Assembly: GCA_003160265.1 (NCBI GenBank)
Contig: PLQY01000104.1
Coordinates: 1,542-14,145, forward strand
From: Peptococcaceae bacterium
GTDB lineage: Bacteria > Bacillota > DSM-12270 > Thermacetogeniales > Thermacetogeniaceae
Reading direction: 5' to 3'
DNA: 12,604 nucleotides
In this document: positions 1,384 to 12,604 of the stretch, piece after piece
Layout: every line of letters starts with the position of its first letter
Position numbering within the stretch: position 1 is the first letter of the stretch
Notes under the pieces: generated by a model
Told to the model about the DNA's origin: nothing
The model's input: only the letters and a program-made list of their open reading frames with translations
Databases searched by the model: none
Position numbers and translations under genes: made by a program

Positions 1384-4300
1384 AGTTTCTGTGAACTGGT
1401 AACCTTACAGATCCCCTGGAGGAGATGGGAATTCCCGCGCCGAAAGCTCAAGGGTAAATAAGTCCAATTCAGGTGGTTGACGCCATGGATGTTCAGCCTT
1501 TCTTGGAAACAGCGATCAGGCTTGTCCAGGTCCTCGACAGGCTGCATACCAATAACCGGCAGGCATACCTGGTGGGCCAGCAGTCGTTTGCTTCTTTTGT
1601 TAATGAGGCCGGTACGACCCTCCCCGGTAAGCTTAAAGGCCCCCTGCTGTATATGTCTCCCGAGCAGAGCAACCGCGTCGACAGGCGGGTTGACTTCCGC
1701 TCGGATTTCTATTCACTGGGGGTAACGTTTTACGAACTGCTTGCGGGTCGGCTCCCCTTCTATTCCGAAGACCCCATGGAAGTGGTACATTTTCATATTG
1801 CCCAAAAGGCCAAGCCTTTGACTGGCGTCAATACCGATATTCCCCCGGTTTTATCAGATATCGTCGGCAAATTGATGGAGAAAAATCCGGGGGACCGGTA
1901 TCAGACTGCCAGCGGACTGCTGGCAGACCTGGAAAGGTGCCGCATCTCCTTGCAGCCTTTTGCCATCGCCACGGATGATGGCCCCGGCGAATTTGCAGTA
2001 CCCGGCAAGCTTTACGGGAGAGAAAAGGAGATCGAAATTCTGAAAGATTTCTACCAGGCTGCCAAATACGGCGGCCTGCAGACGGTCATGGTAGCCGGGT
2101 ATGCCGGTATCGGAAAGACATCGCTGGTGTATGAGCTGGCAGGGTTTGTGCTCGCAGACGGAGGGCTTTTTTCCTTTGGGAAGTTCGACCAGTATCAAAG
2201 TAGTACGCCCTATTCTGCATTTATCCAGGCGCTGCAAGCCGTCATCCGGGGCGTCCTGACCGGGAGCGAGAGCGAGATTCTTGACTGGAAGGAGCGGATG
2301 CTCGATTGCCTGCAGGGGAAGGCTCAGATTATGATCGAGATCATCCCGGAAGTGGAAAAAATCATCGGCCCGCAGTTGCCCGTCCCCAGGCTCGAGCCTC
2401 TGGAAGCCCGATTCCGGTTCTGCACAGTCATACTGAGCCTTATCCAGTTGTTCGCGCCTGACGGAAGGCCGTTCGTGCTGTTCCTGGACGACCTGCAGTG
2501 GGCGGACCCGGACAGTCTCAAGCTGATGGAGAGAATGGCCGGTGACCTGGACAGCAAGAATGTCCTGCTGATCGGAGCATACAGGGATAATGAAGTTGGG
2601 GCCAGCCACCCCCTGCAGGGCGCCCTGGGCAAGATGCAACGAGCCGGTCACGGCATGAGCGTGATCAATCTTGGCCCCCTGGAACAGGAGCAGATCAGCA
2701 TGATCGTTGCGGCAGCGCTCCATTCCAGCGCGCCCGAATCCGACCGGCTGACCAGGGCCTGTATGGCGAAAACGCAGGGCAATCCCTTTTTTCTGACGCA
2801 GTTCCTGTATTCCCTGAAGGAAGACGGCTTTATCTGGTTTGACGCCAAGCAAAAAAAGTGGGCCTGGGACTACGGATCGATCCTGCGCACGGATGTAACC
2901 GACAACGTGGTCAACCTGATGATCAGGAAAATCGACAGGCTTCCATCCGGGACGGTTGAGGTTTTGCAACTGGCCGCCTGCATCAATAACACCTTCGACG
3001 CCAGGACACTGGCCATTGTTGCGGAAAGGCCTCCGGAGTCAATCGACGAAGCTTTGGCAAGAGCGGTATCCGAAGGCCTGATCATGTTTGACGCAGGAAC
3101 ATACCGATTTTTGCACGACAGGATCCAGCAGGCGGCATATTCTCTGGCGTCTGACAGCGACAGAGTGCAGATGCATTATCAAATAGGGGTGCTGCTGTAT
3201 AACACCTCCGAAAAGGAAGTTGAAGAAAGGCTGTTTGAGATTGCAGACCACCTGAACAGCGCATCAGCACTGATCTCTGACAGGGAAGATAGGCACAGGC
3301 TGGCAGGGCTTAACCTGAGAGCGGGCAAAAAGGCCAGGTCTGCTGCCGCCTACGAAAGGACATACGAATACCTGGCGCTGGCGCTGGACCTGCTGGACGA
3401 GGACTGTTGGGAGAATGAATATGACCTGATGCTGGACCTCCATCTCGAGGCCGCCGAAGCGGCTTATGTCTGTATGCGCTTTGAGGCGATGGAAAGAATT
3501 GCGGACAAAACCCTGGTGCACGCCAGGGACCTGTTGGACAGGGCGAGGATATATGAGGTCCGGATCGCCGCCTACGCCTTGCAAAACGATCTGGAGAGGT
3601 CGCTGGCTACATCGTGGGAGATTCTAAGGCTGCTGGGCATAAGGCTGCCTGCAAACCCGGGGAAATGGCATCTCCTGTGGGGGTATCTCAGGACGAGGCT
3701 CGCCCTGGCCGGCCGGCCTCCCGACAGCCTGCTCGACCTGCCCGCCATGAAAGACCGTCAAAGCCTCACCGCTCTTCGAATCATGAACAGCACCAGCATC
3801 GCCAGTGCTCAGGCCTCGCACAACCATTGCGTCCTGCTGGCATTTAACGTCTTAATCCATACCCTGAAGCATGGGATCGCCGAGGAGGCAATCTGTTCCT
3901 ATGCCGGATACGGGTCTATGATCTATGCAATGTTCAATAGGGCGGAAGAGGGCTATCAATATGGAAAACTGGCCCTAAGGTTATCGGATCAATTCGGAGG
4001 CAGCAAATTTGAATGTTTTGCCAGGTTTGTCTTCAATATTATCATCAGGCACGCCAGAGAACCCTTGCGGAATACGCTGCTCGATTTTCCCGGTAGCTAT
4101 CAGAAAGGATTTGCCGCAGGCGACCTGATTAACGCCGGCGGTTCCATCATGCAGTACTTTCTATATTCCTATTTTGCAGGCAGGGAATTGCCGGTGATCG
4201 AACAGGAGATGCAGCAGCACTGGCATGCCCTTCTTAAAAGCGGACATACGATGTCAATCCGCATGTGCGAGCTGTGCCGGCAGACCATCTTGAACTTCAA

Positions 4301-5616
4301 GGAGGATGCCGGCGACCCGTGCCGGCTGGCCGGACAGTACTTCGACGAGGATGCCCTGCTGCCGGAATCTATAAAATCGAACGACGGGATAGTCGTATTT
4401 AGCATCTATTTTCACCGCATGCTGCAGTTTTTTTATTTCGGTCAGCCGGAGGCCGCACTGGAGGCTCTCCCGCACCTCGAAGCATACCTCAATGGTGTTT
4501 TGGGCATCTATTACATTCCACTCTTCCATTTTTACAAGTCCCTGGTGCTGCTTGCCAATGCGGAACGGACGGGCAGGATCAGGAAATTTTCGTATCTTGC
4601 CGGAGCGGACCGGTGCATCAGGGCGATGAAGAGATATGCGCGGACGGCGCCGGCCAACAATCTCCACAAACTGTACCTGATGCAAGCGGAAAGGGAGCGT
4701 GTCAGAGGCAGGTTTTTGTCAGCGGCGGACTATTATGACAGGGCGATCGAACTGGCGGGCAGCAACGGGTTTTTACAGGAAGAGGCGCTGGCCAATGAAC
4801 TGGCCGCCAAATTATATCTGTCCGCAGGCAAGCTGGATGCTGCTGCAAAACATCTGACGGATGCCTATCTATGTTATAACAGGTGGGGCGGCAATGCCAA
4901 GGCGCATGACCTGATCAAGCAATTTCCCGAAATCCTGTCTGCCTATTCCCTGCCTGAGGAGAGGCCTGACCATGGCAGTTCCTCTCTCGACTTGCTGTCC
5001 ATTATCAAGGCCAGCCAGGCCATTTCGGAAGCCCTTGTCCTCGATGAGTTGTTGAACCTGCTGATCAGGATCATCATCCAGAATGCAGGCGCTCAAAAGG
5101 CCGTCTTGATCATGAAAAACAATGGCCGGTTGTTCATCGAAGCGGAGGGAAACGCAGACGACAATACCATCAGTGTCTTGCAGTCCATCCCGCTTGATGA
5201 GCATGACGCCCTCCCGATCAGGTTGATCAATTATGTGGAACGAACCGGAGAGAGCGTTGTCTTGAAGACCGAAAACAGGGCGCTCTTCGGCCTCGATGAG
5301 CATGATCTGCCCAGATCGGCCATCTGCATGCCCGTGATCGCCAGGCGCTCCATTCAGGGAATACTTTACCTGGAAAATAATCTGCTGCCGGGAGCTTTCA
5401 CCAACGACAGCGTGACTGTTCTCAAGCTCCTCTCCTCACAGCTGGCCATCTCACTGGAAAATGCCAAACTGTACCGGGATATGGAAGGCATTATCCAAGA
5501 GCGCACCGACCAGCTCAATCAGAAGAATAGTGAATTGATCCGCATCAATAATGAGCTTGAGGCTGCAAGCCGGGCCAAGTCCCAGTTTGTCGCCAATATC
5601 AGCCACGAGCTGCGTA

Positions 5617-5623
5617 CCCCCCC
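5617..5623 (+). other. Frameshift at a C7 tract inside the histidine kinase H-box
   Basis: The upstream frame reads SHELRTP and then leaves the family pattern (PARDPGDGKP) and stops at 5681. The downstream frame is in register from LHGIQGMASLLQKSG. Six C bases instead of seven would restore SHELRTPLHGIQGM, the normal HisKA continuation. The break is therefore one extra C in a homopolymer. Possible causes are a sequencing error, a true mutation, or slippage giving on/off variation. Confidence 0.9.
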
Positions 5624-5640
5624 TGCACGGGATCCAGGGG

Positions 5641-7059
<1,419 letters not shown>

Positions 7060-7077: not shown

Positions 7078-7360
7078 CAACCTGCTTCAGGCCAGTTCCG
7101 GGCTAGGGCCTCTGTGCCGGTAGCCCACGTATCTGATGGATTCGATCAGGAAGTCATTGTTTCCGGCTTCCTTGTCTAGCTCGCTGCTTTTAACCGAAAG
7201 CATGATCACAGGCACATGGCTCAACCCCCTGTCCGAACGGATATACGCAGTGTTGCCAGACCACCCATCCCTGGCAACAGAACATCCAGGATTACGGCAT
7301 CCACTTCGGTGGTCCTGAGGATCTCCAGGCATTTTTCCCCGAATCAGCCTGCAAGACGTC
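7078..7360 (-). pseudogene. Internally deleted copy of the OmpR-family response regulator
   Basis: This is a degraded duplicate of the regulator at 11413-12132. Bases 7078 to about 7172 match 11404-11498, the C-terminal wing ending NDFLIESIRYVGYR. Bases about 7173-7360 match about 11861-12048, the middle of the receiver including SDRGLSHVPVIMLSVKSSEL. About 360 bases in between (receiver end and most of the winged helix) are missing, yet the frame across the deletion is kept (SSELDKEAGNNDFL). Small indels further upstream break the frame, and the first part of the gene is replaced at 7360 by unrelated stalk-domain sequence. It has no start codon, phosphoacceptor Asp or complete DNA-binding domain, so it cannot work as a regulator. 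Confidence 0.85.
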
Positions 7361-7582
7361 ACAGTGACCCTGGGCAGCAACACCATCCAGCTCATGATCG
7401 GACAGGGCAGCGCCACGGTGAACGGGGTCAGCACGCCGATCGACCCCACCAACCCGGCTGTCACCCCGGTGATCGTTGCCGGATGCACCATGCTGCCCCT
7501 CAGGTTCATCGCCGAGAGCCTGGGCTGCCAGGTGAACTGGAACCAGGCTCAGCAGTTGGTTACGGTGACCTACCCGCAGTAG
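7361..7582 (+). pseudogene. 3' fragment of a secreted stalk-domain (copper amine oxidase N-terminal-like) gene
   Basis: About 72 residues, VTVTLGSNTIQLMIGQG then the stalk signature PVIVAGCTMLPLRFIAESLG and VNWNQAQQLVTVTYP, ending in TAG at 7580-7582. This is the C-terminal half of a stalk domain: a beta-rich, usually secreted module named after copper amine oxidase but without enzyme activity. There is no signal peptide and no ribosome binding site; the sequence begins abruptly at the junction with the response-regulator remnant. A GTG at 7364 or ATG at 7394 could start a short protein, but neither has a recognisable ribosome binding site. It is best read as a recombination leftover. Confidence 0.75.
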
Positions 7583-7660
7583 TAATGCTGTAAATCGGTG
7601 ACCGCATATTTTCTGGGACCAGGTGGATCGATGCAAATAATATTATGAAATATGACTTAA

Positions 7661-7734
7661 TTAACATGGATGTAACAAATGAACGATTGTTTGTAACAAT
7701 TGGATGATAGACTGTCAGCGGAAGTATGTATAAT
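7661..7734 (+). promoter_or_regulatory. Promoter module copy 1, upstream of the propeller/stalk protein gene
   Basis: TTAACA (7661-7666) and GTAACA (7672-7677) are direct repeats 11 bases apart, and a further GTAACA lies at 7693-7698. A dyad GATAG-A-CTGTC (7706-7716, one mismatch) and a perfect -10 box TATAAT (7729-7734) follow. No good -35 box is present, as expected for an activator-dependent promoter. Eleven-base direct repeats of TTAACA type are the known binding pattern of PhoP/OmpR-family regulators in Firmicutes. The same layout recurs at 10191 and 12217. A leader of about 125 bases separates it from the start codon at 7868. Confidence 0.6.
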
Positions 7735-7867
7735 TCTATTTTTCGTGTGCGGTTTTGATGGAGCTATCGTGGGCAGCTAATGGAATCTTTCGGGATTGAC
7801 CGGACACCAATGGATGGATCCAGGGTTTACCAGGTTTTGTGATTAATAATTGAACGGAGGCAAGTAG

Positions 7868-9271
7868 ATGACTGGAAAGGTTTTTTTGAAACGTGGATTG
7901 CTGTTGTTGATGGCCCTGCTGGTCGTGTTGGCGATGACGGCCACACCTGCTTTCGCCACTCTCGTAATCCCAGTCACCGGGGTAACCGTCAGCCCTCACA
8001 CCCTGAACCTGAATGTCGGAGCAACATCAACCCTGACCGCCACCGTAGCGCCTTCCAACGCCAGCCAGGCCGTGACCTGGAGTTCCGATAACACAGGCGT
8101 GGCTACGGTCGACTCCAACGGAGTGGTGACAGCGATTGCGCCAGGCTATGCGCACATCACCGCCACCACAGTGGGCACCTGGTCCTCAGGCAACCCGAGT
8201 GCCGACTCCGTCACCGTGGACGTGACAGCAGCAACCACGTCAGGCACCACGCCTAGCAGCGGTTCAACGCCACCGCCCGCCACTAACACCGCGCCGGCTG
8301 CTCCAAAGACCTATACTGTCGGCAATACCTACAACGTCGGCAATGGCCCGGAAGCCATAGCCATCGACTCCAGCGGCGACGTCTGGGTGGCTAACCAATA
8401 CGACGGCGTGACCGAGCTCTCTAATTCCGGCGCCACCATAGGAACCTACAAAGGCTTCGCTGACCCAGATGGCATAGCCATCGATGCCAGCGGCGATGCC
8501 TGGGTAACTAACTACGGAGGCGACTACGTGACCAAGCTCTCACCAGCAGGTGCCAAACTGGGAACGTACAAAGTCGGCGATGAGCCGTATGCTATAGCCT
8601 TCGACTCCAACGGCAACGCCTGGGTAACAAACTGGAATGGCAACAGCGTGACCGAGCTCTCTTCATCCGGCGCCAAACTGGGAACCTATAATGGCTTAAA
8701 TAGCGCTCATGGTATAGCCATCGACTCCAGCGGCGACGTTTTGGTGACAGACTCTACCAGCAACACTGGCGCCGTGTACGAGCTCTCTAATTCCGGCGCT
8801 AACCTGGGAACCTTGATTGATGGCAGCTGTTACCCAAATGGCGTGGCCATCGATGCCAGCGGCAATGTCTGGGTGACAAACTGGGACTCTAACACCGTCA
8901 CGGAACTAAAAGTAGCGAAGGCCATTCAGGTGTATGTCAACGGGACTCTCGTGCAGATGGATGTGGCGCCCAAGATTGTCGACGGGCGCATACTGGTGCA
9001 GATGCGGCCGATCTTCGAGGCCCTGGGGGCCACTGTGCAGTGGAATCCTGCCGACAAGAGCATCGTCGCCGCCGAGGGCAATACTATAATCAAGCTACAG
9101 ATCGGCAGCACCACGGCCTATAAAAACGGAGCCCCGGTCACCCTGGCCGCGCCGCCAATAATTGTCAATGGGCATACGCTGGTGCCGACGCGTTTCGTCA
9201 GTGAGGCCTTCGGATATAATGTCACATATGACGCTGCCAATATGCGGGTAGACATCACTAGCGGCTCTTGA
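7868..9271 (+). CDS. Secreted Ig-like (Big2) / NHL-type beta-propeller / stalk-domain protein
   Basis: A 467-residue exported protein with three modules. A signal peptide runs to about residue 28 (LLLLMALLVVLAMTATPAFA). A bacterial Ig-like Big2 domain follows (about 35-118; VTGVTVSPHTLNLNVG, VTWSSDNTGVATVDSNGVV, ITATT). A Ser/Thr/Pro linker (about 120-145) leads to five repeats of about 40 residues built on 'AIDSSGDVWVTN...VTELSNSGAKLGTY' (about 155-345), the pattern of NHL/Vgb-like propellers. The C-terminus (about 350-467) is a stalk pair with IQVYVNGTLVQMD, LVQMRPIFEALGATVQWNP and HTLVPTRFVSEAFGYNVTYD. It has no catalytic motif, so a surface or matrix binding role is likely. GGAGG lies 7 bases before the ATG at 7868. 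Promoter module copy 1 should drive it. Domain calls are firm; the job is unknown. Confidence 0.88.
   Translation: MTGKVFLKRGLLLLMALLVVLAMTATPAFATLVIPVTGVTVSPHTLNLNVGATSTLTATVAPSNASQAVTWSSDNTGVATVDSNGVVTAIAPGYAHITATTVGTWSSGNPSADSVTVDVTAATTSGTTPSSGSTPPPATNTAPAAPKTYTVGNTYNVGNGPEAIAIDSSGDVWVANQYDGVTELSNSGATIGTYKGFADPDGIAIDASGDAWVTNYGGDYVTKLSPAGAKLGTYKVGDEPYAIAFDSNGNAWVTNWNGNSVTELSSSGAKLGTYNGLNSAHGIAIDSSGDVLVTDSTSNTGAVYELSNSGANLGTLIDGSCYPNGVAIDASGNVWVTNWDSNTVTELKVAKAIQVYVNGTLVQMDVAPKIVDGRILVQMRPIFEALGATVQWNPADKSIVAAEGNTIIKLQIGSTTAYKNGAPVTLAAPPIIVNGHTLVPTRFVSEAFGYNVTYDAANMRVDITSGS
8335..8913 (+). repeat. Five tandem coding repeats of about 120 bases (propeller blades)
   Basis: The blades of the protein at 7868-9271 are also repeats at DNA level. 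Phrases such as CATAGCCATCGACTCCAGCG, GTGACCGAGCTCTCT and TCCGGCGCCA recur roughly every 120 bases. The near identity suggests recent tandem duplication, and unequal crossing-over could change the blade number. Five visible blades is fewer than the six to eight of a closed propeller, so part of the ring may come from diverged flanking sequence. Confidence 0.75.
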
Positions 9272-9332
9272 ACCAATCCGCCGGACCGGTAGATGCTCAA
9301 GCAGTCAGCCTGACTTTTGCATGTGCTACAAA

Positions 9333-9364
9333 AGCCAGCCCCGGTTCGCCAACCGGGGCTGGCT
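9333..9364. terminator. Hairpin between convergent genes
   Basis: A perfect 14-bp stem (9333-9346 with 9351-9364, arm AGCCAGCCCCGGTT, loop CGCC). On the minus strand it is followed by TTTTGT, giving a short intrinsic-terminator tail for leftward transcription from 9586-10083. On the plus strand no T-run follows, though it is the first strong hairpin after the gene ending at 9271. It lies between two converging genes and may serve both. Confidence 0.55.
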
Positions 9365-9410
9365 CATACATGTTGACTGCATTGAATCGGGTAGGAGGGG
9401 GCGTCTAGCC

Positions 9411-9508
9411 CCCGCGTCGCCGCGGACACCCTTGCCTTAAGCTACGGCTACTGCTACCTTCACCGTTCGGGACTTTCACCCTATGGACAGCGCCCATGCC
9501 GGGCGCAC
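9411..9508 (-). mobile_element. 5' end fragment of a group II intron
   Basis: Reading the minus strand from 9508, the sequence starts GTGCGCCCGGCATGGGCGC and continues with TATAGGGTGAAAGTCCC, GGTGAAGGTAGCAGTAGCC, GCTTAAGGCAAGGGTGTCC and GCGGCGACGCGG. This is the familiar 5' boundary and start of domain I of bacterial group II introns (GUGCG at the splice site, then the AGGGUG/AAGUCCC region). About 98 bases are recognisable. After that a short GGGGGC/GCCCCC hairpin (9397-9413) leads into unrelated DNA. There is no reverse transcriptase (LtrA-type) gene and no domain V, so it cannot splice or move. It begins directly after the hairpin at 9513-9548, the kind of site used by class C introns; the class itself is inference. 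Confidence 0.7.
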
Positions 9509-9512
9509 AAAT

Positions 9513-9548
9513 AAAATAATCGACTCCGAACATAGAGTCGACTATTTT
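9513..9548. terminator. Bidirectional intrinsic terminator after the short stalk-protein gene
   Basis: The arms 9513-9526 and 9535-9548 pair with one mismatch around the 8-base loop CGAACATA; the core is TCGACTC/GAGTCGA. Plus-strand reading ends in CTATTTTT; minus-strand reading ends in TTATTTTATTT. It lies 37 bases downstream of the stop of the minus-strand gene at 9586 and is probably its terminator, with the group II intron fragment inserted just after it. Confidence 0.65.
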
Positions 9549-9585
9549 TGAACCGGCATTCAGAATAAGCAGCATGGCAGCTCAA

Positions 9586-10083
9586 TCATCTGGTCAACAA
9601 CGCAGTCCAGGTGACCGGCTGCCAGGCAACCTGGTAGCCTAGAGCCTGGAACAGTGGCCTCAGGGGCAGAAACAGGCATCCGGACAGATCCGGAGGCGAG
9701 GCGCCTAGATCTACCCTTGAAATCTGGACAAACTGGGCAGCAATGCCTGGGCCTGGTCCGTTGGTAACGGTCAGCGTGTTCGATCCCAGGGTGACACCGG
9801 CTGTCAATTTTCGTGATCCCTCGACCCAGCTGAAAGAGGCCTCTTGATTGGCCGGGTCCCACTGCAGTCCTGCATTCAGAATAACGGCCAAGCCCCGCAA
9901 GGGAACAAACATACGGCCGTTCATGATGACCGGAACCGGCTGCAACTCGTAGACCTGGCCATCCACGGTGCAAGCCGGGCTCCCGGCCGTAAAGGCCAGG
10001 TTCGCCGCCTGAGCCCTGGCCGGAATGGCCTTCAGCGTTAAAAAAGCAGCCAGGATCAAGGTGATCATGGCCAGTCTTCTCAT
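9586..10083 (-). CDS. Short secreted stalk-domain (copper amine oxidase N-terminal-like) protein
   Basis: A 165-residue exported protein. The signal peptide is MRRLAMITLILAAFLTLKA followed by a probable AxA cleavage (PARAQA, about residue 24). The rest is one stalk unit pair: VDGQVYELQPVPVIMNG, MFVPLRGLAVILNAGLQWDP, LTAGVTLGSNTLTV and LFLPLRPLFQALGYQVAWQP. These 'PLR..F/L..LG..V.W' motifs define the domain, which is thought to be a non-catalytic surface or extracellular-matrix module. The inserted loop between the halves (NGPGPGIAAQFVQISRVDLG) is unusual. The start ATG (10081-10083) has AAAGGAG 6 bases upstream. It is transcribed away from the lipoprotein gene; the space between them holds its own promoter and promoter module copy 2. 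Function beyond export and the fold is unknown. Confidence 0.85.
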   Translation of the reverse strand: MRRLAMITLILAAFLTLKAIPARAQAANLAFTAGSPACTVDGQVYELQPVPVIMNGRMFVPLRGLAVILNAGLQWDPANQEASFSWVEGSRKLTAGVTLGSNTLTVTNGPGPGIAAQFVQISRVDLGASPPDLSGCLFLPLRPLFQALGYQVAWQPVTWTALLTR

Positions 10084-10122
10084 ATGCTTCTCCTTTCTCC
10101 CTCATGTCAATGTGCTGGGGAT

Positions 10123-10151
10123 ATTGTACCACCTCACCCCCTTAAAAGGGG
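10123..10151 (-). promoter_or_regulatory. Extended -10 promoter with overlapping dyad for the short stalk gene
   Basis: The minus strand has TGGTACAAT, an extended -10 box (TACAAT at 10123-10128), 40 bases before the ATG. There is no good -35 box. Where one would lie, the sequence is the dyad CCCCTTAAAAGGGG (10138-10151). That layout suggests a regulator-dependent promoter; the regulator is not identified. Confidence 0.45.
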
Positions 10152-10178
10152 TAAGTATTCCCGCAACGATTTTAAAAA

Positions 10179-10303
10179 TTTACGTCTTCGTTAACATGGA
10201 TGAAACAAATGAACTACTGTTTGTAACAATTGTGTGATAGACTATCGACTGTAGTGTGTGTAATTCTATTTTTATGCTGCACGATGGCGGTGTATGGCTC
10301 CAG
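10179..10303 (+). promoter_or_regulatory. Promoter module copy 2, upstream of the lipoprotein gene
   Basis: This copy is nearly identical to copy 3 from the TTTACGTCTTCG stretch (10179) through to ATGGCTCCAGAA (10303). It contains TTAACA (10191-10196), the arms ACAAA and TTTGT flanking ten bases, GTAACA (10223-10228 within TTTGTAACAATT), the perfect dyad GATAG-A-CTATC (10226-10236 region) and the -10-like TGTAAT (10259-10264). The TTAACA to -10 distance is 68 bases, as in the other copies. About 215 bases of leader follow before the ATG at 10482. In that leader I see only a tiny ORF (ATG 10347, four codons) and no riboswitch I recognise. Confidence 0.6.
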
Positions 10304-10481
10304 AACTAATGCCCCTTATTTTTTGAACTGGGAGGCGTCAGGCTTAATGGATGACTCTTAAAAAGCCTTGTTTCAACGGAACCTACAAGCATCTGATTGA
10401 GCAAAGCCGTCTTGTCGGGGAAAGGCCTGGCCAAAGGGCAGATGGTGTTTCATGGAAACTGCTATATTAGGAGGCGAAAGC

Positions 10482-11207
10482 ATGAAGAAGAGAGTGATCT
10501 GGTGTTTGTTGGCGTCGTTGATTGTTGTCGGTGTCCTGGTGGCAGGTTGCAGCAAAAGCAGTTCCACTGGCAGCAGCCCGACGGCTGGCAGCCAGTCGGT
10601 TACCACTCAGAGCCCGACGGCTACCACTCAGAGCCAGTCGAGCGGCAGCCAGACGTTAGCAGATTTAATTGCAAAGTCCAAGCAGGGGAGAAGCATGCAG
10701 GCCGACTTCACCGTTACCACCTCCAAAGGTACAGCCAACGGAACGATATGGAAGCAAAAGGACATGGCGAAGATCGAAACCACTGTCAATGGCCAGCAGT
10801 CTGTAATGATCATCAACTATGCCGACAATACCATGATTGAATATCAGCCAGCCCGTAACATGGGAGTGAAAATGAAGCTGCCATCCACGTCCCAGGACGC
10901 TAGTAGCTACCTGAACGGCGTCGACCCGAGCACTGTGCAGGACCTCGGGACGGCAGTCATAAATGGTGAGACCTGCCGCGTTATTCAATACACCATGGCA
11001 AGCGCGCCGACTACGACGATAAAAATGTGGCTGAGCGAGGATCTGGACTTTCCTGTCCAAATGATTAGCACCAACGCGAACGGCAATACCACGACGATGG
11101 ATTACACGAACATCACGGTGGGTACGCTGCCCAGCGACACCTTCAGCGTGCCGGCCGGCATAACGATCAGGGATATGACCAACGTGAACCTGCCTTCTCA
11201 ACCATAA
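10482..11207 (+). CDS. LolA-like secreted lipoprotein
   Basis: A 241-residue lipoprotein. The signal sequence MKKRVIWCLLASLIVVGVLVAGC ends in the lipobox VAGC, so the mature protein should be anchored by Cys 23 to the outer face of the membrane. A low-complexity Ser/Thr/Gln linker follows (to about residue 55, with SPTAGSQSVTTQ and SPTATTQSQ as imperfect repeats). The remainder is a beta-rich domain: ADLIAKSKQGRSMQADFTVT, TANGTIWKQKDMAKIET, NYADNTMIEYQPARNMGVKM, GETCRVIQYTM, KMWLSEDLDFPVQM, TFSVPAGITIRDM. This is the pattern of LolA/LppX-like lipid-binding folds found as lipoproteins in Gram-positives. I chose ATG 10482 because AGGAGG stands about 8 bases upstream; the ATG at 10452 has none and would spoil the signal peptide. 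Promoter module copy 2 lies upstream. The ligand is unknown. Confidence 0.85.
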   Translation: MKKRVIWCLLASLIVVGVLVAGCSKSSSTGSSPTAGSQSVTTQSPTATTQSQSSGSQTLADLIAKSKQGRSMQADFTVTTSKGTANGTIWKQKDMAKIETTVNGQQSVMIINYADNTMIEYQPARNMGVKMKLPSTSQDASSYLNGVDPSTVQDLGTAVINGETCRVIQYTMASAPTTTIKMWLSEDLDFPVQMISTNANGNTTTMDYTNITVGTLPSDTFSVPAGITIRDMTNVNLPSQP

Positions 11208-11303
11208 AAAGCAGTTGGGGAGGAGCTGTTGGTAATCCTGCTAGCGCTCGTATGGTGGCGCCAGCCCGGCACAAGCACGATGCGTGCTCAGGTAAGCATT
11301 ACT

Positions 11304-11351
11304 AGGACAGAGGCGGCCCGGAGTAAAAAAACACCGGGCCGCCTCTGTCCT
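11304..11351. terminator. Very strong hairpin between the lipoprotein and response-regulator genes
   Basis: A perfect 18-bp stem (11304-11321 with 11334-11351, arm starting AGGACAGAGGCGG) closes an A-rich 12-base loop (T-rich on the minus strand). It lies between the convergent 3' ends of the lipoprotein gene and the response regulator, so it is probably a shared transcription barrier. No T-run follows the stem on either strand, which is odd for an intrinsic terminator. Confidence 0.5.
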
Positions 11352-11359
11352 GGCGCCAG

Positions 11360-11388
11360 TTGCCTAAGTTATGAAGAGAAGTTATAAT
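11360..11388 (+). promoter_or_regulatory. Candidate antisense promoter reading into the response-regulator gene
   Basis: TTGCCT (11360-11365), a 17-base spacer and a perfect TATAAT (11383-11388) lie on the plus strand, just outside the 3' end of the minus-strand regulator. No plus-strand gene follows, so a transcript would be antisense to the regulator. This is based on box match and spacing only. Confidence 0.3.
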
Positions 11389-11412
11389 ATAGCTCAGCAA
11401 GGGCAACCTGCT

Positions 11413-12132
11413 TCAGGCCAGTGCCGGGCTATGGCCTCTGTACCGGTAGCCCACGTATCTGATGGATTCGATCAGGAAATCATTGCTCCCGGCTTTTTTG
11501 AATTTCATTCGGAGGCGCCGGATGTGGACGTCTACGGTACGGGTTTCCAGCGCATATTCGTTGCCCCAGATCGCATCCAGGATCTCGTTGCGGGTAAGGG
11601 CCCGGCCCGGGTTTTTGACAAGCAGGGCGAGTAGTTCGAATTCCTTGAAGGTAAGGGCAATCTTCCGGCTCTGGTAGAAAACCTCCCGTGTGACAAGGTC
11701 AATCTCCCCATCGCCGAAAGGCAGCCTGTCAGCATTGGCAACTGCCGCCTGTTCCATCCTGGTCCTGCGTAAAACGGATTTGACTCTCGAGATCAGTTCA
11801 TGGTAGCGGATCGGCTTTCCTATGTAATCGTCCGCCCCCAGTTCCAACCCCACCACGCTGTCTATCTCGCTGCTTTTAACAGAAAGCATGATCACGGGTA
11901 CGTGATTGAGCGCCCTGTCCGAGCGGATCTGGCGCAACGTTTCCAGACCGCCCATCCCTGGCAGCAAGACATCCAGGATTACGGCATCCACTTCGGTGGT
12001 CCTGAGGATCTCCAGGGCATTTTCCCCCGAATCAGCCTGCAAGACGTCAAATCCTTCCTGCTTGAGAGCAGACTCGGCCAGTCTCCTGATATCCGCATCA
12101 TCATCCACAATCAGGATAGTCTTCCTGAACAT
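11413..12132 (-). CDS. OmpR/PhoB-family response regulator
   Basis: A 239-residue DNA-binding regulator. The receiver domain (1-120) has the acidic cluster VDDDADIR, the phosphoacceptor Asp in AVILDVLLPGMGG, Ser in the switch position (VIMLSVKSSE) and Lys in IGKPIR. The winged helix (about 140-235) shows LTFKEFELLALLVKNPGRAL, RNEILDAIWG, TRTVDVHIRRLRMKFKK and the wing IESIRYVGYRYRG. I start it at ATG 12130-12132, with GGAGG about 4 bases upstream; a GTG at 12144 would place this ribosome binding site inside the gene. No histidine kinase gene is adjacent within the window, so it is an orphan here; the phosphorelay protein at 1485-7059 is the nearest candidate partner (inference). Its promoter overlaps promoter module copy 3, which suggests autoregulation. 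A deleted copy lies at 7078-7360. Confidence 0.93.
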   Translation of the reverse strand: MFRKTILIVDDDADIRRLAESALKQEGFDVLQADSGENALEILRTTEVDAVILDVLLPGMGGLETLRQIRSDRALNHVPVIMLSVKSSEIDSVVGLELGADDYIGKPIRYHELISRVKSVLRRTRMEQAAVANADRLPFGDGEIDLVTREVFYQSRKIALTFKEFELLALLVKNPGRALTRNEILDAIWGNEYALETRTVDVHIRRLRMKFKKAGSNDFLIESIRYVGYRYRGHSPALA

Positions 12133-12191
12133 TACTCCTCCCACCCGAGGTTACGTCTATCAATTACTGGGAACCGGGTAGATCAATTTTA

Positions 12192-12220
12192 ATAGTACCA
12201 TAAAATTACGTCTTCGTTAA
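12192..12220 (-). promoter_or_regulatory. Promoter of the response regulator, overlapping module copy 3
   Basis: On the minus strand, TTAACG (12215-12220), a 17-base spacer and TACTAT (12192-12197) are preceded by TG in extended -10 position (TGGTACTAT). The -35 box shares its TTAA with the first TTAACA repeat of module copy 3. A further TGATAGAC half-site lies in the leader (12155-12162, minus strand). Confidence 0.55.
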
Positions 12221-12332
12221 CATGGATGAAACAAATGAACGACTGTTTGTAACAACTGCGTGATAGACTATCGACTGTAGTGTGTGTAATTCTATTTTTA
12301 TGCTGCATGGATGGCACTGAATGGCTCCAGAA
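12204..12332 (+). promoter_or_regulatory. Promoter module copy 3, between the response regulator and the right-edge gene
   Basis: It shows the same order as copies 1 and 2: TTACGTCTTCG, TTAACA (12217-12222), ACAAA/TTTGT arms, TTTGTAACAA, the perfect dyad GATAG-A-CTATC (12262-12272), and the -10-like TGTAAT (12285-12290), again 68 bases from TTAACA. Homology with copy 2 runs on into the leader as far as ATGGCTCCAGAA. Its orientation points to the gene beginning near 12440. Confidence 0.6.
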
Positions 12333-12439: not shown

Positions 12440-12604
12440 ATTCAACGCTTCACAAGATTCCGTAACGTCATACTGTTGGTGGTCCTGCTGGCGCTCGCGG
12501 CAGCGCAAAACCTGTACAACGGTCCCATATTCACAATCAAGGCGCGCCTCAGAGCTACGAGTTCCAGGCCGCCTTTTTAACCCAGTTGGAAATATTTCCA
12601 ACTG
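12440..12604 (+). pseudogene. Start of an exported protein gene, partial and probably frameshifted
   Basis: An open frame encodes QRFTRFRNVILLVVLLALAA then AQNLYNGPIFTI, which looks like a signal or anchor sequence. AAGGTGGG lies 9 bases before an ATT codon at 12440, the only position with proper spacing; no ATG, GTG or TTG exists in this frame after the stop at 12413. The frame stops at 12580, but a second frame opening at about 12541 (GAPQSYEFQAAFLTQLEIFP) reads as a natural continuation, so one base seems to be missing near 12540. The gene leaves the window at the right edge. Module copy 3 is upstream, as for the other exported proteins. It could be a pseudogene or a region of poor sequence; the family is not recognised. 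Confidence 0.4.
12583..12604. repeat. 22-base perfect palindrome at the window edge
   Basis: The arm CAGTTGGAAAT (12583-12593) is followed directly by its exact reverse complement (12594-12604) with no loop. The window ends exactly where the palindrome does. It could be a real site or a fold-back artefact at a contig end. Confidence 0.6.

Follow-up and report, generated by a model that had tools for sequence, protein, structure and literature searches.

A 12,604-nucleotide stretch from a Peptococcaceae bacterium (contig PLQY01000104.1, positions 1,542 to 14,145; "the window" is this whole stretch) carries one promoter-like block in three copies, together with a gene for a response regulator of the OmpR family (RR, used below also for its orthologues), and the question it raises is which protein reads the block and which genes are controlled through it. 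A first-pass annotation had assigned the copies to a local regulon of surface proteins and had linked their TTAACA-type repeats to an OmpR-family regulator. That link gained support: the repeat array accompanies the orthologues of the encoded RR in other genera, and since the site of the three copies also stands beside the same regulator gene in distant bacteria, the protein that docks there is very probably that regulator. Our reading, to which we give a probability of roughly 0.7 on the strength of sequence comparison, is that the three copies are promoters dependent on an activator, the window RR (coordinates in Table 1), which would bind their operators; the regulator seems to control cell-surface genes.

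The three copies in the window

Positions within the copies are given as offsets from the first base of TTAACA (+n), and L-numbers (L012, L177 and so on) denote the genomic regions taken for comparison. The TTAACA motifs first annotated at 7661, 10191 and 12217 are all present, and they lie in blocks of 106 bases, over which copy 3 shares 96% and copy 1 76% identity with copy 2. In a sequence search with copy 2, copy 3 came out at E 2.2e-50 and copy 1 at E 1.9e-21; the best of all other places in the genome assembly (1.78 Mb, 84.7% complete) reached only E 0.069. The block was found in no other of 100 relatives (two of the same genus) searched with copy 2, and a 25-base partial match in the gene region of one relative (E 0.002) was taken as chance. 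Across the assembly, the core pattern with up to three mismatches recovered only the window copies, its reversed control giving none; a looser pattern at the same tolerance also recovered only these three, yet its reversed control gave three as well.

The core of the copies is a half-site array, TTAACA-N5-G(T/A)AACA-N15-GTAACA, with tandem half-sites about 11 bases apart as in an operator of the OmpR/PhoB type; offsets 0, 11 and 32 are clear and offset 22 is weak but bears a conserved CGA. The remaining elements of the first-pass annotation fared unevenly. The inverted pair ACAAA/TTTGT is in place in every copy (at +14 and +29). The second repeat is GTAACA in all three at +32, whereas at +11 it reads GTAACA in copy 1 and GAAACA in copies 2 and 3. 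The GATAG-A-CTATC dyad (offsets 45-55) is perfect in copies 2 and 3 but imperfect in copy 1, which reads GATAGACTGTC; it overlaps the -10 hexamer proposed below at offset 47 and is unconserved in the sites outside the window. The inverted pair has a counterpart in those sites, where the bases at offsets 11-17 can pair with those at 30-36 in 6-7 of 7 positions in L177-L181, L183 and L012, the window copies reaching 6, 5 and 5 of 7 and L182, L184 and L189 only 3-4. Readings as an RNA element or a tRNA-linked element were rejected, as no Rfam family reached its gathering score in the window and no tRNA was found there.

The same site beside regulator orthologues

Among named genome contigs (80 of 107 loci), the closest relatives of the RR are those of Desulfosporosinus sp. 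PR (58% identity) and Petroclostridium sp. X23 (56%). Regulators with 83-89% identity are encoded on metagenome contigs (P0002-P0006). In Petroclostridium, Desulfosporosinus and relatives, RR orthologues of 47-57% identity have the array close upstream of them, where it points away from the RR gene, an orientation that the annotated plus-strand direction of the window copies fits. The Petroclostridium RR is preceded, on the opposite strand, by TTAACA-N5-GTAACA-N15-GTAACAA, with half-sites and spacing as in the window; with up to one mismatch this 5.5-Mb genome holds two matches only, both at the kinase-RR locus (reversed control 0), the second of them 526 bases upstream of the hybrid kinase frame and before a small open reading frame (ORF). 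None of 398 genomes of the window's phylum except its own had an RR above about 50% identity at E 1e-60, and among 196 Petroclostridium relatives only Petroclostridium itself had one passing 1e-63. Of 298 genomes around Desulfosporosinus PR, 14 (PR included) had an RR at E 1e-62 or better, and from these 14 the array, with up to three mismatches in 18, was upstream of the RR in L164-L170 and L172. Larger regions were compared for 14 places: the array was present in all eight with the kinase beside the RR and a readable upstream side (L177-L184) and in L012, whereas L185, with its kinase at a distance of 1.6 kb, is without it, as are L186, L188 and L190.

A matrix of 53 columns, for which 11 outside sites were given weights by lineage (five lineages) and the window sequence was excluded, ranks the window copies first to third (scores in Table 1), the next window position standing at -2.9 bits. 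The site in L189, with six mismatches to the array pattern, yet scores 29.6 bits. When the 500 bases upstream of each RR were scored with lineages left out in turn (each site by a matrix without its own lineage), 11 of 102 regions reached at least 15 bits (20.0 to 58.2) and the other 91 stayed below 10; each of the 11 sites points away from the RR and ends 33-89 bases before the aligned RR start. L011 and L188 are one place, which leaves at most 101 distinct regions; near-identical relatives were kept, and L187, whose RR is cut by a contig end, was excluded. In a quick tree of 46 RRs (L187 and L011 excluded), all 11 site-bearing RRs belong to a single clade with 14 members (SH-aLRT 99), the 32 RRs outside it are without the site, and the site label takes three changes on the tree against a shuffled mean of 10.

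Promoter geometry

Within offsets 36-79, offset 47 is the only place with a TATAAT-like hexamer common to the 11 outside sites (mean 4.5 of 6 matches, next best 2.8); the patterns used for finding these sites covered offsets 0-37. There the window copies carry TAGACT after TGA, which we take to be a -10 of the extended type. At a 17-base spacing, none of the 13 sites matches the -35 hexamer at more than 1 of 6 bases, and no plus-strand promoter was reported in the copies by a generic sigma-70 scan. The layout is that of a PhoB-like promoter, with a -10 at a fixed distance (offset 47 in the outside sites) and no good -35.

The first-pass annotation had instead fixed the -10 box 68 bases from TTAACA. 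TATAAT (copy 1) or TGTAAT (copies 2 and 3) does stand at exactly +68, but the outside sites share offset 47 and not 68, where their mean falls to 2.13 of 6 matches. In the full form of that model the -10 at 68 is real and the dyad is the site of a second protein. The window hexamer is indeed closer to TATAAT at 68 (6, 5 and 5 of 6) than at 47 (4, 4 and 4), and its spacing is fixed in the three copies; against this stand the outside means and a dyad that is not intact in copy 1 and shares bases with the -10 at 47, and we consider the model quite unlikely as a whole. The better hexamer does make a second or other start possible.

The strand of the regulator gene offers a further reading, in which the site is chiefly a feedback operator over the RR's own promoter and the divergent genes are bystanders: a -35-like hexamer (4/6) and TACAAT (5/6) lie 17 bases apart inside the site in 7 of 10 outside RR-upstream sites. 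These hexamers are, however, not kept in the window copies (3, 2 and 2 of 6 matches at the -10), the -10 pointing away from the RR is common to the outside sites, two outside sites precede the kinase and not an RR, and neither copy 1 nor copy 2 adjoins an intact RR gene. Set against these points, a chiefly autoregulatory role appears very unlikely, and activation away from the regulator gene is the reading that we retain.

Genes facing the sites

The claim that all three copies face genes for exported proteins stands for copies 1 and 2 but could not be demonstrated for copy 3, where a stop and an assembly gap intervene (Table 1). The survey of downstream genes elsewhere listed ORFs of at least 90 residues. 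The first gene encodes CpsB_CapC in L180 and L181 (Pfam) and in L183 (visible likeness), a Bac_transf sugar transferase in L178 (L177 has a short frame that starts alike), Polysacc_synt_2 in L179 and L012, and in L184 a protein with TIG, Laminin_G_3 and CW_binding_2 that is at least 3000 residues long. A second L184 site faces the hybrid kinase, and in L162 a small ORF with no Pfam match comes first and then the kinase. The target set is largely surface-related in the window and at the outside sites, in agreement with the surface-protein regulon first annotated. Since the relatives' sites are mostly at genes for surface polysaccharide or wall proteins, with two upstream of the kinase, the system would probably adjust the cell surface and its own level.

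A second Petroclostridium RR (L189, 8782; 49% identity) has no kinase in 16.5 kb and a diverged site, with TAAAAT at offset 47, facing a sigma-factor gene.

Points against the proposed reader and the phosphate regulon

Several observations weigh against the window RR and its orthologues as the readers of this site. The RR of highest identity among the loci compared, that of Desulfosporosinus sp. PR, with no kinase in its 12 kb, is without the site, this genome giving no array match at up to one mismatch, and so are L185 and L186, which belong to the RR clade. The targets are mixed, the L182 site facing a GAF-LuxR regulator and that of L189 an ECF-type sigma factor, and in L177-L179 and L012 the first gene lies 431-557 bases from the start of the site, so that the link between site and gene is less certain there. 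In a background scan of 1.17 Mb of other sequence (rows for L125 and L126, which overlap the window, and for the site-bearing L161/L189 set aside), L131 scored 20.3, L139 12.4, L133 10.6 and L134 10.1 bits, all four being pattern-selected loci, and L157 has a 16.9-bit match about 550 bases upstream of an RR of 44% identity, outside the 500-base span. The window hexamer at offset 68 belongs here too, as does the PHO-box-like nature of the half-sites, with pattern matches at the loci of other regulators and at one PstS-type gene scoring 10 to 20 bits.

The last of these points suggests that the sites could be PHO boxes of the phosphate regulator PhoB/PhoP, the local system being one of its targets. 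Half-sites and spacing are of the PHO-box kind, the general pattern at up to one mismatch occurs in 12 of 398 phylum genomes against four with the reversed control, one such match (L133) precedes a PstS-type gene, and the pstS gene of the window's genome also has TTAACA-type repeats 11 bases apart. On the other side, the site tracks one RR clade, the close matches of Petroclostridium are confined to the kinase-RR locus, the pstS region of the window's genome (L143) scores -17.4 bits, and the pstS repeats observed lack the central ACGA that the RR sites conserve. No phosphate gene was found in the window or among the scanned first genes downstream of the outside RR-clade sites. On balance we regard control by PhoB/PhoP as unlikely, and binding by the clade-specific RR remains our preferred explanation.

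Of the three general-pattern matches scanned (L131, L133 and L136), only L133 faces a PstS-type gene; L131 and L136 were rejected as pst promoters, the former facing a Germane-domain protein and the latter a PD40-repeat protein, each target coming after another HAMP histidine kinase. In L191 and L192 an RR of 41% identity lies near a general-pattern match, and similar arrays may therefore serve other regulators.

Origin of the copies

The first-pass annotation took the retention of the elements in a diverged copy 1 as a sign of selection. Over the site and the -10, copy 1 agrees with copy 3 at 48 of 53 bases (91%); just downstream the agreement is 26 of 37, and in the outer flanks it falls to 13 and 8 of 40. 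The argument is nevertheless weak when taken alone, as the decayed RR piece next to copy 1 is about equally preserved relative to the intact RR gene (88% identity over 191 bases, 93% over 92). Copy 1 is thus better kept than its flanks and no better than an apparently dead adjacent gene, so the case for selection needs evidence from outside the window. The copies might, on this showing, be functionless leftovers of a local duplication, as the near-identity of copies 2 and 3 over the block and the state of the decayed gene would allow; the same positions are, however, kept in other genera, and the first 53 bases of copy 1 have held while its outer flanks drifted. We find functionless leftovers highly improbable and retain the reading as probable promoters.

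Kinase and RR stand tail to tail in L177-L181, L183 and L184, and the site is found past the start of the RR; the window has the kinase, the tail-to-tail decayed RR piece and then copy 1. Copy 1 occupies the position of the relatives' site, and it is therefore probably copy 1, rather than copy 3, that marks the ancestral place; it also has the highest matrix score of the three. Copy 2, and likewise the intact RR together with copy 3, would then probably be local duplicates that put further genes under the switch.

A possible surface-control system

The window RR has the two domains of the OmpR/PhoB family, a receiver (PF00072, 8.3e-30) and a winged helix (PF00486, 1.1e-24). The hybrid kinase, read in two frames (1473-5681 and 5551-7059), has a partial Pkinase, AAA_16 and GAF together with HisKA, HATPase_c, Response_reg and Hpt, so that the gene set of a phosphorelay is present: a kinase with HisKA, HATPase_c, receiver and Hpt, and a regulator encoded nearby. 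The two frames overlap at 5551-5681 within the HisKA region, a frameshift or an assembly error; the L184 orthologue is complete in one frame.

Judging from these domains, phosphate would pass from the hybrid kinase through its own receiver and Hpt to the RR. Spacing and family suggest that RR dimers would then line up along one face of the DNA, on the four half-sites (offsets 0, 11, about 22 and 32), and the bound RR may replace the missing -35 and recruit polymerase to the conserved -10 at offset 47, the promoter firing away from the regulator gene.

A broader proposal, which we hold with about even odds, is that anaerobic Bacillota-type bacteria have a self-contained and as yet undescribed system for surface control, in which a hybrid kinase (Ser/Thr-kinase-like, AAA, GAF) would signal to a PhoB-like RR with its own operator, TTWACA-N5-GTAACA-N6-CGA-N6-GTWAC, switching adjacent capsule, exopolysaccharide or giant surface-protein genes; in the window lineage the divergent switch would have been copied, recruiting further exported proteins. 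The module had been called undescribed, and this member appears to be so, but its kind, PhoB/PHO-box-like promoters, is already known; no publication on this system was found by title or start of abstract among the matches listed, in a search with most subscription journals outside its scope. For an uncharacterised kinase-regulator pair that occurs in Desulfosporosinus, Petroclostridium and the window's organism, the comparison supplies a DNA site together with its promoter geometry and the likely class of targets (cell surface, polysaccharide), and it suggests that a local regulon may grow through copying of the regulator's own divergent promoter.

Other features of the window

Table 1. Positions of the promoter elements and genes discussed, numbered from the first base of the window.
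Feature	Position	Strand	Basis or remark
Repeat block, copy 1	7646-7751		
Repeat block, copy 2	10176-10281		
Repeat block, copy 3	12202-12307		
Site, copy 1	7661..7698	+	half-sites TTAACA 7661, GTAACA 7672, ACGATT 7683, GTAACA 7693; 44.8 bits
Site, copy 2	10191..10228	+	GAAACA at +11, ACTACT at +22; 32.7 bits
Site, copy 3	12217..12254	+	divergent from intact regulator gene; 31.5 bits
Proposed -10, copy 1 (TAGACT after TGA, offset 47)	7708..7713	+	4/6 matches; place shared by outside sites
Proposed -10, copy 2 (TAGACT)	10238..10243	+	4/6 matches
Proposed -10, copy 3 (TAGACT)	12264..12269	+	4/6 matches
First-annotated -10, copy 1 (TATAAT, offset 68), possible second or alternative start	7729..7734	+	not shared by outside sites
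OmpR-family RR, proposed binder	11413..12144	-	Response_reg and Trans_reg_C
Hybrid kinase in two frames, proposed RR partner	1473..7059	+	domains; orthologues adjoin RR orthologues
Decayed piece of second RR gene	7078..7361	-	tail to tail with kinase, as RR in relatives
Copy 1 target: exported protein with Big_2, NHL repeats, Cu_amine_oxidN1	7868..9271	+	Pfam; signal-peptide-like start from sequence
Copy 2 target: lipoprotein (LVAG-C) with DUF4412	10482..11207	+	Pfam; lipobox from sequence
Downstream of copy 3: signal-peptide-like fragment, stop at ~12580	12452..12580	+	beside assembly gap (NN) just beyond window end

Fused to the decayed RR piece is a Cu_amine_oxidN1-like piece (7361-7583), with 70%-identical DNA at C35:1190-1379 of the same genome. 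The target gene of copy 1 contains repeats of about 120 bases (8327-8881) that correspond to the NHL/propeller part of the protein, and 3' of the DUF4412 gene lies a 21-base inverted repeat (11304-11351, 95% complementary), perhaps a terminator. An ANTAR-domain response regulator is encoded near the kinase, at 209-793, and further downstream on the window's contig there is an RNase P RNA of class A (L009, 4593-4962).

Comparison with known systems

In Myxococcus xanthus, the SgmT-DigR system likewise joins a hybrid histidine kinase to a DNA-binding regulator acting on the extracellular matrix (PMC3509222); both partners are called orphans there, and the likeness noted here is one of general description. 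The solved regulators of the OmpR/PhoB family MtrA (2gwr), RegX3 (2oqr), PrrA (1ys6) and PhoP (3r0j) align with the window RR in receiver and winged helix over nearly the full length, but share only about one third of its residues by eye, in a comparison of the proteins. The PHO boxes of PhoB/PhoP promoters share direct repeats 11 bases apart, a reader of the OmpR/PhoB family and a position upstream of the -10, PhoB binding 11-base repeats in tandem, as a review describes (PMC4415409). The window system differs from them in its regulator clade, in its hybrid kinase, in its mostly surface-related targets and in the central ACGA of its site, and the repeats at the pstS gene of its own genome are of a different form.

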